Assembly (NCBI GenBank): GCA_017417055.1
Contig: JAFPZX010000190.1
Location: 1-38,388, forward strand
Direction: 5' to 3'
DNA length: 38,388 bases
Source of the DNA: Anaerolineaceae bacterium
GTDB taxonomy: Bacteria; Chloroflexota; Anaerolineae; Anaerolineales; Anaerolineaceae
The notes beneath the pieces are model-generated. The model saw only the letters and a list, made by a program, of their open reading frames with translations. It did no database searches and had not been told where the DNA came from. Both the position numbers and the translations under genes were made by a program. Below are positions 20,729 to 33,522 of the stretch, piece after piece. The stretch's first letter is position 1. Each line of letters begins with the position of its first letter.

Positions 20729-20806
20729 ATGAAAATCAGTGGGAAGGGGACTGTCCCTTTATGGGACTGTCCCCATGAGCTTCGCAGAAAGCAAGGATGT
20801 GACTAA
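20729..20806 (+). CDS. 25-codon leader ORF upstream of metF, created by the duplication
   Basis: The duplicated start codon (20729) with its own AAGGA site opens a frame that begins M-K-I-S, like MetF itself. It then crosses the palindrome (G-T-V-P-L-W-D-C-P-H) and ends at a TAA whose last A is the first base of the metF ATG (TAATG, 20804-20808). This arrangement is that of a translationally coupled leader peptide. Whether it is translated is unknown, but the start signals are as good as those of metF. Confidence 0.5.
   Translation: MKISGKGTVPLWDCPHELRRKQGCD
20746..20774. repeat. Family A palindrome inside the metF leader
   Basis: GGGGACTGTCCC (20746-20757) and GGGACTGTCCCC (20763-20774) form two tandem GGGAC-n-GTCCC units. 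They pair with each other over 12 bp except for the central T-T pair. Confidence 0.75.
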
Positions 20807-26157: not shown

Positions 26158-26222
26158 AAGTTTGGGTGTAAACTCTGAGTATCAGTTGGAAGATAGCTAA
26201 TAAAAGGAAAGGAGGCACGGTG

Positions 26223-27182
26223 ATGAACGAAGAATTGAAGAAATCCATCGAAGAGATCGAAACAACCGAAGAGATTTTCGAACCGGATATCTTTGGTTTG
26301 GAACACATCACCGATTTCGACTCCTACGAAGAACGTCTGAAGGACGCTCAGGCGGATTATGACGCTGTTTGTGCGGCATTCAAAGCATCGGACCCCAACA
26401 AGCGTTCCATCATGAAAGCTGCTGAACGGGCAGAAAAGATCGCGAAAACACTGGTCGCCCGTGTGGCGGTGATTTTCCATATGAGCACCACGCCTTTAGA
26501 AAAGCGCATGAAAGGCCGGGAAATCATCGACAGAATCTGTAAGGATGCCAACAGCCGGGAACAAACCTGCAGCCAGTTCTATCGTGCGGTTGCGGAAAAA
26601 TATCCGGAACAGACCGACTATCTGGACGGTCTGCTGGATGACAAACTGGATCGGATGAATTTCCTGAACCGCTGCATGGCGACACAGGTCCATTATCAGA
26701 ATGATGGCATCAAGAAAAACGATTACGCACAGGCAATACATAATCGTAAAGTCGAAGCCGCGGAAAAAGCGGAAAAGATCCGCTCCCGTGTACCGGCCGG
26801 ACATATGTTCCTGCCGCCGCGCATCTTCCCGCATGATCCGGTGCCTGAAGGACTGCCGGTTCCGGAACGACCCGAACCTTACGCGCGGGTGGCGAGCCTG
26901 GACGTTGATTACAAAGAGTATGACATCGAGCATGACAACTTTGTGGTCAAGAAGGGATACGTCAGCGAAGATGGTTTGATCGATGACCAGTCCGTCGTCT
27001 GGGACTACGAAAACAACAAGGTGATCTGTAAGTTCCGCGGAGGGGAACCCATCGTCTGGGACTTCTGGAAACCAAAGGATACGGCAGATGTCCTGGGACC
27101 GGAGCACTGGTGCTACCAATATATCCGAAGGTTATACTGGCAGCTCATGGACAAACAGGAACCGGGGTTATTTAGGAGATAG
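26223..27182 (+). CDS. Unknown charged protein upstream of the terminase-like gene
   Basis: A 319-residue cytosolic protein with a very strong AAAGGAGG site. The N-terminal 40 residues are acidic. Residues 45-200 are predicted long helices rich in Lys, Glu and Ala, probably coiled or helical-bundle (K-A-A-E-R-A-E-K-I-A-K; R-K-V-E-A-A-E-K-A-E-K-I-R). A Pro-rich linker (L-P-P-R-I-F-P-H-D-P-V-P-E-G-L-P-V-P) follows, then a beta-rich C-terminal domain of about 90 residues with several Trp-Asp pairs (V-V-W-D-Y; I-V-W-D-F-W). It is probably paired with the terminase-like gene about 330 nt downstream. A small-terminase or adaptor role is imaginable but unsupported by any motif I know. Confidence 0.75.
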   Translation: MNEELKKSIEEIETTEEIFEPDIFGLEHITDFDSYEERLKDAQADYDAVCAAFKASDPNKRSIMKAAERAEKIAKTLVARVAVIFHMSTTPLEKRMKGREIIDRICKDANSREQTCSQFYRAVAEKYPEQTDYLDGLLDDKLDRMNFLNRCMATQVHYQNDGIKKNDYAQAIHNRKVEAAEKAEKIRSRVPAGHMFLPPRIFPHDPVPEGLPVPERPEPYARVASLDVDYKEYDIEHDNFVVKKGYVSEDGLIDDQSVVWDYENNKVICKFRGGEPIVWDFWKPKDTADVLGPEHWCYQYIRRLYWQLMDKQEPGLFRR

Positions 27183-27369
27183 GAAATAGGTTTTAGGGGG
27201 TAGACAGCCGGGGTCGGTGACGATTTCGGCTGCCTGTTGTTAAGAAAGCTTTCCCGGGGACTGGACCCGGAGGGGCCTGTACACGTCTCACGAACATAGC
27301 GGATGGATAAGCGGGAAAGCGGAAATTACGGCACTGAGCCGCAGGAAGAAAGTTGTAACAGGTTCATAG

Positions 27370-27468
27370 GATGTTTGGCCGTGGTGCTGACGGTCCTCCC
27401 GGGTTACAGGCCCGCAAGCGGTCCAGTCCCCCGACAACGATGTTTGGTCGTGGTGCGGACGGTCCTCC
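27370..27468 (+). repeat. 30-nt direct repeats flanking a family A-like unit
   Basis: 27370-27399 and 27439-27468 (both beginning GATGTTTGG and ending ACGGTCCTCC) differ at only 2 of 30 positions. Between them is GGTCCAGTCCCC (27420-27431), the exact complement of GGGGACTGGACC at 27256-27267. The 327-nt gap 27183-27509 holds this and a TAGGTTTTAGGGGGTAG short-repeat stretch just after the preceding stop; I see no gene in it. Confidence 0.65.
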
Positions 27469-27509: not shown

Positions 27510-29249
27510 ATGTCAGATGAATCTGTAAATATAGAAATAGAAAACCAATGTGATCCGATACCGGGATCATGGGTAACGAGCGGATGTTCACTGCGTTCAT
27601 ACCAGGCAGATGCGATGCGGAATATTTTTGACGCAGTCGTTCAGGGGAAGGGCGGTCGGTTCGCGGTGACGTTTCCACGGCAGTCGGGAAAAAATGAGAT
27701 GCAGGCGCAGCTGGAGGCGGCGGTGATGGCGGCGAACCAGCACCGCGGTGGGAACATCATCAAGATCATCCCGACCGAAAAGAATCAGGGAAAGGTTTCG
27801 ACGGAACGTCTTGCCGGCGTGCTGCGTGCCGCGCGCTCCGGGGACAGTCCCTTCACGGGACTGTCCCCATCAGGAGCAGGTGAAAGTGGTGACAGTATCG
27901 TAAAGGGACAGTCCCTGATAAAAGGACAGACCCCGATGAATGTTGGTTTTCGTGGGGACAGTCCCATGAAGGGACAGTCCCCGTTCAAGGCTATGAAGGA
28001 TGAAATCGTCTATGGAAACACCCGAATGCGGTGTCTTTCGGCCTCTCCGAACGCGGCAATCGTGGGAGCGACGGCAGACCTGCTGCTGGAAGTTGACGAA
28101 GCGCAGATGGTAGCGCCGGAGAAGTTCGACCGGGAAGCCGCGCCGATGGCTGCCTCGACGAACGCGGTGCAGGTCTTTTACGGCACCGCATGGGATGATC
28201 AGACCTTACTTTCCCGGGAAATGAAACTGGCGCAAAAGGAAGCTGACAAAGACGGGTTGAAGCATGTCTTCGTGACCACCGCTGCAGAGGTCGGGAAGGA
28301 AGTCCCACAGTATGAGACCTTTGTCCGTTCTCAGATTGACCTACTGGGACGGGAACATCCGGCTGTACGGACGCAGTTCTTCTGCGAAGAGATCACCGAC
28401 CTGACCTCCATGTTCACGCCGGACCGTATCAATAAGATGAAGTGCGCTCACGAGCCGCTTTACGCTCCGCAGAACGGGCAGTGCTATGTGTTCCTGATCG
28501 ACGTGGCCGGGTCAGACGAGATCACACCGGCGAGCAAAAAAGCAAACGGATTCTCCGACCGCCGTGACGCCACCGTGGTGACCATCTGCGACGTCTCGCT
28601 CCCGGAAGGGAAAGCTTATGATCCGAAGAACTTCGTCTGGAAGGTGGTCGGACGGCGGCTGTACCGCAACCTGCGGGCGGAAATGCTGGAACAGCGCATC
28701 TGTCAGGATATTGAGCAGTGGGGACCAAAGCATATCATCATTGACCACTCCGGTCTGGGCGCTATGCTGAGCGATGTTTTGGTAACGAAGTACAAGAGCC
28801 GCGTAACGCCGATCGATATCACCGCGGCGAACAAAACAAAGATGGCCTGGGACTTTTTGGCGATGGTCGATACCGGCCGCTGGCAGGAGCACAAGGGCGA
28901 CGAGATCAACGTCCTGAAATCCAGTTTCAAACCGGGCAAGGAACCCTATGAGATCCTGAAAGAACCGGAGCTGCTGCAGCAGATGTTTTATCGCGAACTG
29001 CGCGGGTGCCGCATCGAACCCACCGGGAACCAGTCCAACGTCCGCTGGGGCGTGAAGGACGGGACCCGCGACCATGCCACTGGTCGCATCCTGCATGATG
29101 ATCTGGTGATGTCCGCCGCGCTGGCGGTGTTTGAGACGAGCACGCTGCCGATCCGCAATCATATCGAAGACCTGACCGAACATTATGAGAATCTGCAGAA
29201 AATTTACGAACGCAGAATGCGCCGGGAAATGGGGCCGTATTGGAGGTAG
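27510..29249 (+). CDS. Terminase large-subunit-like ATPase/nuclease with palindrome-encoded insertion
   Basis: A 579-residue protein with the two-domain plan of phage large terminases. The N-terminal ATPase has a Walker A-like P-R-Q-S-G-K-N-E (about residue 55), Walker B L-L-L-E-V-D-E-A-Q (about 195) and a coupling motif Y-G-T-A-W-D. The C-terminal RNase H-like nuclease has acidic motifs in F-L-I-D-V-A-G, I-I-I-D-H-S-G and H-D-D-L-V-M-S-A-A-L-A. About 50 residues between the Walker motifs (27837-27990) are encoded by family A palindromes, with repeated G-D-S-P-x-x-G-x-S-P peptides. No portal, capsid or integrase gene is adjacent, so this is an orphan or domesticated gene. The start at 27510 follows AAAGGAGA; the frame is open upstream through repeats. 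Confidence 0.82.
   Translation: MSDESVNIEIENQCDPIPGSWVTSGCSLRSYQADAMRNIFDAVVQGKGGRFAVTFPRQSGKNEMQAQLEAAVMAANQHRGGNIIKIIPTEKNQGKVSTERLAGVLRAARSGDSPFTGLSPSGAGESGDSIVKGQSLIKGQTPMNVGFRGDSPMKGQSPFKAMKDEIVYGNTRMRCLSASPNAAIVGATADLLLEVDEAQMVAPEKFDREAAPMAASTNAVQVFYGTAWDDQTLLSREMKLAQKEADKDGLKHVFVTTAAEVGKEVPQYETFVRSQIDLLGREHPAVRTQFFCEEITDLTSMFTPDRINKMKCAHEPLYAPQNGQCYVFLIDVAGSDEITPASKKANGFSDRRDATVVTICDVSLPEGKAYDPKNFVWKVVGRRLYRNLRAEMLEQRICQDIEQWGPKHIIIDHSGLGAMLSDVLVTKYKSRVTPIDITAANKTKMAWDFLAMVDTGRWQEHKGDEINVLKSSFKPGKEPYEILKEPELLQQMFYRELRGCRIEPTGNQSNVRWGVKDGTRDHATGRILHDDLVMSAALAVFETSTLPIRNHIEDLTEHYENLQKIYERRMRREMGPYWR
27840..27982. repeat. Family A palindromes inside the terminase-like gene
   Basis: GGGGACAGTCCC-TTCAC-GGGACTGTCCCC (27840-27868) is a perfect 12-bp-arm palindrome. 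GGGACAGTCCC recurs at 27905-27915, and a pair of units at 27954-27965 and 27971-27982. All units keep the same reading frame, giving G-D-S-P or G-Q-S-P peptides. Confidence 0.9.
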
Positions 29250-29445: not shown

Positions 29446-29478
29446 ATGTTACATTATTTTTGAATATTGGAGGATGTC

Positions 29479-30822
29479 ATGGATATTCGTGAATTGATCG
29501 GAAAAAAGATGCTTTATTTTGACGGCGGGTTGGGTTCGCTGCTGCAGGCGCAGGGTTTGCAGCCGGGAGAAGAACCGGAACGCTGGAACCTTGAACATCC
29601 GGATATCATTGAGAATGTCCATTTCTCCTATTATCAGGTTGGCTGCCATATTGTCACAACGGATTCACTGGGCTGTAATGAGCTGAACTTCCCGGATGAG
29701 GGGGCGTACAGTGTGGAATCCATCGCCAAAGCGGCTGTAGACAATGCCAGACGGGCACGCGCTCGAGCGGATGAACTGGATGGCGGGGCGGAACCGCGGT
29801 TCATCGCTTTTTCCATCGGGTCTTTAGGCCGCCTGCTGAAGCCGCTGGGTACTATGCCATTTGAAGAGGCTTACAATGTATTTGCCCGTACAGTGCGCGC
29901 TGCAACAGCTGCCGGGGCGGATATTCTGCTATTTGAAACCATCAACGATCTTTATGAAGTGAAGGCTGCGGTGCTGGCTGCCAAAGAAAATAGTGAGCTG
30001 CCGGTGTTTGTCACGATGACTTATGACGCGGGTGGGAGACTCATGACCGGCGGCGATGTGCCGGGAGAAGCCGCACTGTTGGAAGGACTTGGCGTGGATG
30101 CATTCGGACTGAACTGCGGTCTCGGTCCTGCCCAGATGAAGCCGATCGCCCTGAATATGCTGGAATATGCATCCAAACCTGTGATCGTCAATCCCAATGC
30201 CGGACTTCCCACTACGGTGAATGGACGGACTGTCTATTCGGTTGGACCGGAAGAATTTGCGGAAGTGATGGAAGAAATGGTAAAAGCAGGCGTTTGGATC
30301 GCGGGCGGCTGCTGTGGAACGACACCGGCCCATATGGCTGCCATGATCGAACGCTGCAAAAATATAAGTCATGTGCCGCTCACCAAAAAGAACCGTTCGC
30401 TGGTGTGCGGAACTTCCAAAACCGTGGAAATCGGGCCCGAACCGGTCATCATCGGGGAACGCATCAACCCGACCGGGAAAAAGAAATTCAAGGAAGCGCT
30501 GCGCAATCACGATATCGAATATATTGTCCGGGAAGGGATCAAACAACAGGATTCCGGAGCTCATGTGCTGGATGTGAACGTCGGGCTGCCGGAAATCGAC
30601 GAAACGCAGATGATGGCGGATGTGGTCTATGAACTGCAAAGCGTCATTGGGCTGCCGCTGCAAATCGACACGACCAACCCGAAAACGATGGAAAAAGCGC
30701 TGCGGCTGTATAACGGCAAGGCGCTGATCAACTCCGTCAATGGAAAACAGTCTGTCATGGCTCAGATCTTCCCGCTGGTGAAAAAATATGGCGGTGTGGT
30801 TCTGGCATTGTGCCTGGATTAG
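29479..30822 (+). CDS. metH: Cobalamin-dependent methionine synthase, N-terminal part ending at an in-frame amber codon
   Basis: The first 447 codons of MetH, which transfers methyl from methyl-THF through cobalamin to homocysteine. The homocysteine domain spans about residues 1-290, with zinc ligands Cys213 (G-L-N-C-G) and Cys278/Cys279 (G-G-C-C-G-T). The pterin-binding barrel starts at I-I-G-E-R-I-N-P-T-G (about 330) and is cut in its middle by TAG at 30820-30822. The frame continues after the TAG with the normal MetH sequence, and the amber replaces the Glu usual in the L-D-E-D-G-I-P segment. The start has a GGAGG site. As read, this half would make an incomplete barrel. See the second half at 30835. 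Confidence 0.9.
   Translation: MDIRELIGKKMLYFDGGLGSLLQAQGLQPGEEPERWNLEHPDIIENVHFSYYQVGCHIVTTDSLGCNELNFPDEGAYSVESIAKAAVDNARRARARADELDGGAEPRFIAFSIGSLGRLLKPLGTMPFEEAYNVFARTVRAATAAGADILLFETINDLYEVKAAVLAAKENSELPVFVTMTYDAGGRLMTGGDVPGEAALLEGLGVDAFGLNCGLGPAQMKPIALNMLEYASKPVIVNPNAGLPTTVNGRTVYSVGPEEFAEVMEEMVKAGVWIAGGCCGTTPAHMAAMIERCKNISHVPLTKKNRSLVCGTSKTVEIGPEPVIIGERINPTGKKKFKEALRNHDIEYIVREGIKQQDSGAHVLDVNVGLPEIDETQMMADVVYELQSVIGLPLQIDTTNPKTMEKALRLYNGKALINSVNGKQSVMAQIFPLVKKYGGVVLALCLD
30820..30822 (+). other. In-frame amber (TAG) codon inside metH
   Basis: Codon 448 of the full-length frame. The reading continues GAC GGG ATC CCG ATG without a shift, so one G-to-T change from GAG explains it. TAG ends several other genes here (1126, 8085, 16631, 20219, 27182), so it is an ordinary stop in this genome. 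Confidence 0.9.
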
Positions 30823-30834
30823 GACGGGATCCCG

Positions 30835-31902
30835 ATGACCGCGGATGGACGTCTTGCCATCGCTGACAAGATCTACAAAACTGCTGAAAGTTATGGAATC
30901 GAAAAGAAAGATATTTTGATCGATGCCCTTGCCATGACGATCAGCTCCGAACCAGAAGCCGGCAGGGCCGCACTCGGAACGCTGGATGGGATCCGTGAAC
31001 GCTATGACGGACATACAGTTCTTGGGGTTTCCAATATCTCTTTTGGACTGCCGCAGCGTGAGATCATCAACGCCGCATTTTATACCATGGCTCTTTCCCA
31101 TGGGTTGAATGCCGCCATTATCAACCCGAATTCCGAACCGATGATGCGGGCGTATTACGCATACCGCGCATTGGCCGGGCTGGATGCCAACTGCCAGGAG
31201 TTCATCGAAAAGGCTCCTTCCATGGCTGCTGCCGCGGCGCCTGCAGCTGCTGCTTCATCCGCTCCTGCGGCCGCCTCGCTCGGTTCCGCGGATTCGCTTA
31301 GCGCCTGTGTGGAACGCGGGCTCAAAGATGGTGCGGCTGCTTTTGCCGCTCAGATGCTCAAAGAGCATTCCGCGCTGGATATCATCAACAGTGAATTGAT
31401 CCCCGGACTGAATAAGGTCGGCAAGGATTTCGAAACAGGGAAGGCTTTCCTGCCGCAGCTGCTGATGAGCGCTGAAGCTGCCAAATCCGCTTTTGAAGTG
31501 CTGAAAAGTCATATGGCCGGCGCCGGTGAAGTGCGCGAAAAGAAGGGAACGATCGTTTTGGCGACGGTCAAGGGCGATATTCACGATATCGGAAAGAACA
31601 TCGTGAAGGTGCTGTTGGAAAATTATGATTATGAGGTCATCGATCTTGGCAAGGATGTTGATCCTTCTGTTATTGTAAGTGCTGTTGTGGAGAAACATGC
31701 TGAATACTGCGGCCTTTCCGCGCTGATGACCACGACCGTTCCCGCAATGGAGGAGACCATCAAACAGCTGCGCGAGGCTGCTCCCTGGTGCAAAGTGATG
31801 GTGGGCGGCGCGGTGATGACCCAGGCTTACGCCGATATGATCGGGGCGGATGCTTACTGCAAAGATGCCATGGCGGGTGTCAATTACGCGGAGAGAAATT
31901 AG
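30835..31902 (+). CDS. metH: Methionine synthase, C-terminal part (pterin barrel end and B12-binding domains)
   Basis: 355 residues in the same frame as the first half. It holds the second half of the pterin barrel (to about residue 120), an Ala/Pro-rich linker (A-A-A-P-A-A-A-A-S-S), the helical cap, and the cobalamin domain with D-I-H-D-I-G-K-N, whose His is the axial B12 ligand. The later S-A-L and V-G-G-A-V-M segments complete the corrin site. The activation domain is absent and is supplied by the separate gene at 21674. Translation could restart at the ATG 12 nt after the amber, with GGACGGG upstream, but splitting a TIM barrel here makes independent function doubtful. Readthrough or suppression would restore an 807-residue protein, counting the residue inserted at the amber. 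Confidence 0.88.
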   Translation: MTADGRLAIADKIYKTAESYGIEKKDILIDALAMTISSEPEAGRAALGTLDGIRERYDGHTVLGVSNISFGLPQREIINAAFYTMALSHGLNAAIINPNSEPMMRAYYAYRALAGLDANCQEFIEKAPSMAAAAAPAAAASSAPAAASLGSADSLSACVERGLKDGAAAFAAQMLKEHSALDIINSELIPGLNKVGKDFETGKAFLPQLLMSAEAAKSAFEVLKSHMAGAGEVREKKGTIVLATVKGDIHDIGKNIVKVLLENYDYEVIDLGKDVDPSVIVSAVVEKHAEYCGLSALMTTTVPAMEETIKQLREAAPWCKVMVGGAVMTQAYADMIGADAYCKDAMAGVNYAERN

Positions 31903-33495: not shown

Positions 33496-33522
33496 GGGAC
33501 TGTCCCTTCGTGAGACAGTCCC
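33496..33522. repeat. Family A palindrome between convergent genes
   Basis: GGGACTGTC (33496-33504) and GACAGTCCC (33514-33522) form a perfect 9-bp stem preceded by an A-run. On the reverse strand the stem is followed by TTTTTTTATC, so it can end the leftward transcript of the gene at 33539. Confidence 0.7.

Follow-up and report, generated by a model that had tools for sequence, protein, structure and literature searches.

Inverted doublets of REP sequences that form hairpins (REPINs) are described as flanking the gene of a Y1/HUH transposase, RAYT or TnpA_REP (PMC6006769). Akin to these, RAYT-like genes of the TIRYT kind are flanked by TIRs, some carrying the motif GGGGWSAS; the same account places REPs inside genes of several species, some of them wholly within open reading frames, with clusters that code for 43-82 residues, and reports recB genes of two Xanthomonas species with REPs at roughly one position (Di Nocera et al., 2013; PMC3733652). 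The Rickettsia palindromic elements (RPEs), of about 150 bp, are reported in frame in unrelated open reading frames, each with a conserved peptide (PMC10969869). In-frame intragenic REPs are already known, and what is new in the present work is one protein loop filled by several unrelated families. A search of open-licence papers recognised no report of REPs in a terminase loop, nor did it find a description of one protein loop with several unrelated palindrome families.

The locus lies in a stretch of 38,388 nucleotides (the window) from a gut Chloroflexota which, judging by its relatives, would belong to Flexilinea. These relatives include metagenome-assembled genomes (MAGs), namely uncultured Chloroflexi RUG13159, RUG13631 and RUG11948, and Flexilinea sp. 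RGIG2505 from goat jejunum. We call G000 the genome of the window, and Flexilinea clade the five genomes that carry its terminase large subunit-like (TerL-like) gene: G000, G005, G006, G012 and G013. As in the TIR/TIRYT system as published, palindromes stand here on both sides of a RAYT-like gene and form dimers and clusters; the GGGGWSAS motif is fitted by GGGGACAG in the arms of the window, not by the arm GGGGACGG of G006. Set against that account, the present case concerns one loop of one gene family and at least three palindrome families plus simple repeats, and the carrier is a TerL-like gene of Chloroflexota with several dispersed copies. Hairpin doublets and a Y1/HUH gene flanked by palindromes recall the REPIN/RAYT pair as described, but the location is coding, the RAYT-like proteins fall under the NCBIfam cut-off, and there is no foot of the GTAG-type REPs, the outer ends of the insert adjoining GCTCC and GTTCA. 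The initial annotation had likened the insert to RPEs, which is fair as an analogy: palindromic DNA is in frame inside an open reading frame. Compared by description, RPEs differ in that a single gene body is concerned here (in a sample of 781 kb), read in two phases, and in that the element is a common intergenic repeat of a RAYT-type system. With this case, REPs inserted in frame are met in Chloroflexota too, and in a gene derived from viruses.

A palindromic insert in a terminase-like ATPase

The TerL-like frame begins at an ATG preceded by GGAG and stays open throughout, down to its stop codon at 29247-29249 (Table 1). An AlphaFold model of the protein, with 46 aligned proteins and a mean pLDDT of 69.7, has T4 gp17 (E 6e-9) and the HK97 large terminase (E 1.5e-7) among its first three PDB fold matches by E-value; full-length TM-scores are low (0.20-0.40, and 0.28-0.40 for these two), and nuclease-domain matches reach up to 0.78 of the target. 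A terminase match in PHROGs is weak (E 3.9e-4), and neither Pfam nor NCBIfam gave a match at E 0.001. Identity with viral loci is 33-39% (best 80 of 117), while among isolated phages the protein matched two records of one Bacillus phage, at 24.6% identity. On the model, then, the protein has the Walker A/B ATPase and the RNase H-like nuclease fold of a terminase large subunit, and it shares Walker motifs with phage TerL. It differs from phage TerL in the extra residues that separate Walker A from DEAQ in most of the clade, and in its surroundings. Metabolic or housekeeping genes, or genes without a family match, surround the three copies checked, and no phage or prophage packaging module was recognised around any of them: the neighbours are AlgX-like, MBOAT and methionine-type genes in the window, 5'-nucleotidase and DUF5662 genes on contig C9 of G006, and FtsJ/S4 and FtsH-like genes on contig C34 of G006. 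Downstream of the window's copy, a Pterin_bind region of the methionine-synthase-like type seems split between two open reading frames, 29467-30822 (profile positions 1-120) and 30835-31902 (positions 155-244), and 29467-31902 may be a split or broken gene. Short direct repeats (GGAGTGAG-, GTAGAAGG- and GTGATCGGTGG-type) that differ by genome follow the stop codon of many TerL-like copies; in the window they come just after 29249.

Table 1. Features of the window discussed in the text.
Feature	Position	Strand	Basis
TerL-like (terminase large subunit-like ATPase/nuclease) gene, multi-copy, dispersed	27510..29249	+	Open frame, fold match
Predicted disordered loop, residues 112-154	27843..27971	+	pLDDT < 50 (AlphaFold), between helix 93-110 and strand 159-162
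Composite in-frame palindromic insert (REP/TIR pair, degenerate middle copy)	27839..27983	+	Inverted arms, five exact GGGACNGTCCC
Left hairpin of the insert	27839..27869	.	Inverted repeats
Middle palindrome units of the insert, degenerate	27888..27934	.	Repeat families D1 + D2
Right hairpin of the insert	27953..27983	.	Inverted repeat
Intergenic copy of the same palindrome pair	20747..20773	.	GGGACNGTCCC pattern search
Intergenic copy of the same palindrome pair	33496..33522	.	One unit with one mismatch
Upstream gene, without known family, accompanying several TerL-like copies	26220..27182	+	Multi-copy, same five genomes
Second palindrome family, long inverted repeat in the spacer that precedes the TerL-like gene	27256..27431	.	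12-nt perfect arms, 152 nt apart

Allowing one mismatch, GGGACNGTCCC occurs at nine sites of the window, against a mean of 0.78 in shuffled sequences (none of 100 shuffles reached nine). Five exact occurrences, at 27841, 27857, 27905, 27955 and 27971, fall inside the TerL-like frame between Walker A (PRQSGK) and Walker B (LLLEVDEAQ), and the earlier observation of palindromic DNA carried in frame by a terminase-like ATPase stands. So does the statement that the same units lie between genes of the window, where two pairs were found (Table 1). The ends of the insert are 31-nt inverted arms, 94% complementary, and folded as single-stranded DNA the whole exceeds shuffled sequences in stability by 6.1 standard deviations (z = -6.1; none of 200 as stable); Rfam recognised no structured RNA between 26000 and 29700, up to E 0.1. 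The translation contains GDSPFTGLSP and GDSPMKGQSP with a degenerate copy in between: the repeated peptide G-D-S-P-x-x-G-x-S-P announced for the insert is indeed seen, and the palindromes are read in two phases. Along the insert these phases run 1, 2, 2, 1, 2, and there is therefore no single conserved peptide per palindrome. The loop of Table 1 is predicted to be disordered. Residues 178-227, outside the insert, also have a pLDDT below 50, and the model is therefore weak there too.

An ordinary repeat of the genome

The GGGACNGTCCC palindrome is the ordinary, mainly intergenic repeat of G000. It is found there at 257 exact sites, with four for the reversed pattern used as a control, and the insert as a whole has at least 98 matches in its own genome (40 of 139 candidates scored). 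Location relative to genes was established in 781 kb of G000 (18%, window included, 84.5% coding by our own gene caller), half of which had been picked for holding palindromes, a choice with no bias toward intergenic over coding sites. As many as 117 of the 130 exact sites in this sample lie outside called genes (binomial P < 1e-78, though the sites are paired and not independent). Of the 13 that lie inside, the insert accounts for five; another five sit close to the ends of genes (one at C39:1053, two each in C41 and C142), and C53, C33 and C103 have one unpaired 11-mer each, which leaves the insert as the only gene body of the sample with paired exact palindromes away from gene ends. The five genomes of the TerL clade hold 257, 76, 45, 27 and 25 palindromes (reversed controls 4, 9, 3, 9 and 6), and nine other genomes of the same genus hold 0-2. 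What stands out is the loop that received the palindrome, rather than the palindrome itself. The idea of a separate class of peptide-encoding palindromes, put forward for the insert, is rejected on account of this mainly intergenic location and of the variable reading phase. The palindrome also flanks a gene for a RAYT-like tyrosine transposase, and therefore appears to be a REP/TIR element of the RAYT/TIRYT kind.

One loop, several fillings

The insert is absent from relatives. We compared 99 of them: 16 loci, L228, L229 and L230, and the best 80 of 117 viral loci; L230 is the short copy of G012 and belongs to the clade of the window itself. The distance from Walker A to DEAQ is 94-99 residues in 98 of the 99, and exactly 96 in 81 of these. 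The script used for this count chose the candidate distance nearest to 93; a recheck without that choice, on the best-matching open reading frame, parsed 95 of the 99, all at 94-99 residues and 79 at exactly 96. Within the Flexilinea clade the distance jumps to 99-231 residues, with 139 in the window and up to 231 in G006 (for these two, the wider landmark distance less 15), that is, 18-135 residues above 96, and three above it in G012. By the wider landmark distance, 15 of 16 proviral relatives stand at 111 and L024 at 113; the values of the clade are 114 (G012), 141 (G005), 154 (two copies in G000), 129-141 (three in G013) and 206-246 (five in G006). The flanks of the insert, expected to join naturally, do not do so directly: in relatives that lack it they are linked by a short segment of different sequence.

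What fills the loop differs from species to species, and so does the resulting peptide. Pairs of GGGACAGTCCC are present in the G000 loop, which is common to two contigs at 96% identity over 166 bases. In G005 the loop is occupied by another long palindrome, for which that genome has at least 66 matches and each of 11 others 0-4. Yet another palindrome is found in G006, 26 times there and never in 11 other genomes; a TerL-like match is absent from 15 of these 26 loci, and an alignment of the five G006 copies shows that the number of repeat units varies among them. Three G013 loops carry simple TTCACACTTCAC-type repeats that are present also in G000, G012, G005 and G006, and the loops of G012 and of the G013 copy on contig C8 have no obvious palindrome. 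Across related species, the loop of the TerL-like gene holds palindromes or repeats of different families. In three of the five genomes the filling is the genome's own dispersed palindrome, and in two of these three it matches palindromes around a transposase gene of the same genome. This provides a natural series, in which the same protein loop holds different mobile palindromes and empty relatives serve for comparison; the old question whether small palindromes that move supply proteins with usable peptide, or are just tolerated, can thus be tested within one protein.

The link to Y1 transposases

G000 has seven Y1_Tnp matches. One of the genes, RAYT-like (L004, C42:9557-9886), has GGGACNGTCCC palindromes on both sides, and the exact palindrome is absent at the other six loci. 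The protein of this gene and that of L179, the RAYT-like gene of G006, match PF01797 (Y1_Tnp) above its cut-off; against NF047646, the REP-associated tyrosine transposase, they reach E 4.5e-11 and 1.4e-21, at 42.8 and 76.9 bits, both under the curated cut-off of 80. HVH and Tyr motifs, which we take to be marks of Y1/HUH transposases, are visible in the RAYT-like proteins. The window's insert matches the palindromes at C42 (E 2e-9), those at the Y1 locus L182 of G005 (E 6e-11, better than C42) and those at the Y1 locus L180 of G012 (E 1e-6); its palindrome family is therefore common to at least three genomes. All five G006 loops match the palindromes around L179, each with a best E between 1e-11 and 6e-9, and a second palindrome inside two of them (C23 and C9) matches this locus too, with E values of 9e-7 and 7e-8. 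When three loops were base-shuffled 200 times each, none of the 600 sequences matched any of 22 Y1 loci at E 1e-4. The three Y1 genes checked in G005 do not adjoin the palindrome of its own loop, and the G013 loops match a Y1 locus weakly (E 1.5e-5), so that a loop palindrome shared with the genome's own RAYT-like gene is seen in two of the four genomes with long loops. The matches tie the loop DNA to the genome's own transposase in G000 and G006, and weakly in G013. Each of the five TerL-clade genomes has 2-7 Y1 genes; in a search from which G002, G003 and G007 were left out, five other genomes had none and G011 had a weak one. That palindromes, Y1 genes and the TerL clade go together in five genomes may reflect shared descent.

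Frame, selection and the origin of the insert

The initial annotation had proposed an alignment of homologues and a count of coding sites. Beyond the absence of the insert from relatives and the 13 coding sites described above, this showed that the frame is kept: all 13 loops with both flanks (105-501 nt, short flanks included) are a multiple of three and free of stops. Left out of this count are the G000 copy on C44, which stops short at the loop, and those truncated by contig ends. The alternative forward frames of the same loops contain stops in 25 of 26 cases, the exception being one G005 frame. The copy of G000 on C11 has its loop in frame and a frameshift further on. Outside the loop the TerL-like gene is under purifying selection, with dN/dS of 0.03-0.18 in 49 of 55 pairs; the six pairs with saturated dS were dropped, and many of the remaining ones have dS above 1. 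In a tree, copies group by genome, with the G013 copy on C8 apart.

We consider it quite probable that host palindromes mobilised by a RAYT repeatedly entered one permissive loop of the TerL-like protein, in-frame outcomes alone surviving. The source would be the genome's own mobile intergenic palindromes, of the REP/TIR and RAYT/TIRYT kind, and a HUH/tyrosine transposase of the REP-associated type, acting on single strands, would spread them genome-wide. Some would enter the loop between the two Walker motifs, a permissive and disordered part of the protein surface, where only frame-keeping products would persist because the TerL-like protein is under selection. Related species would thereby come to have the loop filled by different families, one of them with a second palindrome placed within the first. 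The transposase would have made the insertions, in several independent events rather than in a single one later overwritten by recombination among repeats. The loop itself would be functionally neutral.

The insert might instead have been selected for itself, as hairpin DNA or RNA or for the peptide that it adds, for example as a protein-interaction loop or a DNA site. Divergence along the gene lends this some substance. Comparison of the five copies in G006 gives differences of 0.03-0.10 in the 30-nt bins over the hairpin arms, of 0.18-0.32 in mid-loop and of 0.30-0.41 at silent sites elsewhere in the gene; between the window and C11, two of three loop bins differ by only 2-3% and the other bins mostly by 5-13%. 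These values are suggestive of a constraint on the arms at the DNA level, inseparable from gene conversion: a low divergence of the arms fits recent spread or gene conversion as well as it fits hairpin constraint. Moreover, many G006 bins outside the loop are as low (mostly 0.03-0.18, all sites), five non-loop bins of the comparison with C11 are also at 2-3%, the peptide varies by species and the G012 copy does without it. Selection of the insert for a function of its own is therefore unlikely, and the repeated entry of host palindromes into a tolerant loop remains our preferred reading.

A dispersed two-gene unit

The finding also draws attention to a TerL-like unit that is dispersed and for which our searches gave no family name. 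The gene upstream of the TerL-like gene (Table 1) was found at 9 of the 22 TerL-like loci that we compared; contig ends truncate many of these loci. Counting pieces, it has 26 matches in G013, 13 in G000, 12 in G006, six in G012 and two in G005; a search of six further genomes gave none. In viral DNA it gave one weak match (E 2e-4 over 55 residues), on a contig with no significant TerL match, and among the 99 TerL loci (best 80 of 117 viral loci included) it matched only at L230, of Flexilinea G012. The two genes (26220-27182 and 27510-29249) thus form a unit with many copies in the five Flexilinea-clade genomes, the checked copies being outside recognised phage modules. The spacer between them holds the second palindrome family of Table 1 and matches DNA adjoining another Y1-transposase locus of G000, L003 (E 5e-15). 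A motif, AGCCGG..TCCGGAGGATTTCGGCTGCCTG, recurs between the two genes in several copies; in the window (about 27206-27238) it is present as a variant that the search pattern does not match, and Rfam has no match for it.

With these elements one may ask whether the unit itself is mobile, tied to the RAYT/REP system and with the palindromes of spacer and loop as its working parts. The unit, Y1 genes and palindromes do occur in the same five genomes, and the three checked copies sit among ordinary genes; but the five genomes are possibly just one clade, neither defined ends nor target duplications were found, and the palindromes vary by species, with none obvious in the loops of G012 and of G013 on C8. 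We hold this to be distinctly unlikely. A bolder picture makes of the TerL-like gene and its partner a new genetic element, dispersed in Flexilinea and living alongside RAYT-type transposases, whose TerL-like loop would be a standing dock for palindromes, receiving them in frame again and again, becoming specific to each species and possibly helping copies to recombine or spread via the palindromes of the chromosome; we offer it as a long shot.

Repeated entry of palindromes from elsewhere in the genome is easier to reconcile with the data than their birth in the gene by local duplication, followed by spread to intergenic sites. The varying number of repeat units among the G006 copies would suit such a birth, but the RAYT-flanking and intergenic copies far outnumber the genic ones and the loops of relatives have no room for a precursor, which makes it very improbable. 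A chimeric gene assembled from contigs collapsed on repeats is likewise hardly credible, even though the titled relatives are MAGs, many copies are at contig ends and one G000 copy ends at the loop, since the same loop is found on two G000 contigs, five G006 contigs have in-frame loops and no loop with both flanks departs from the frame. In that truncated copy (L039, on C44), which ends inside the loop, a TTCACACTTCACTCTTCACA repeat follows the palindrome, which suggests recombination between repeats.
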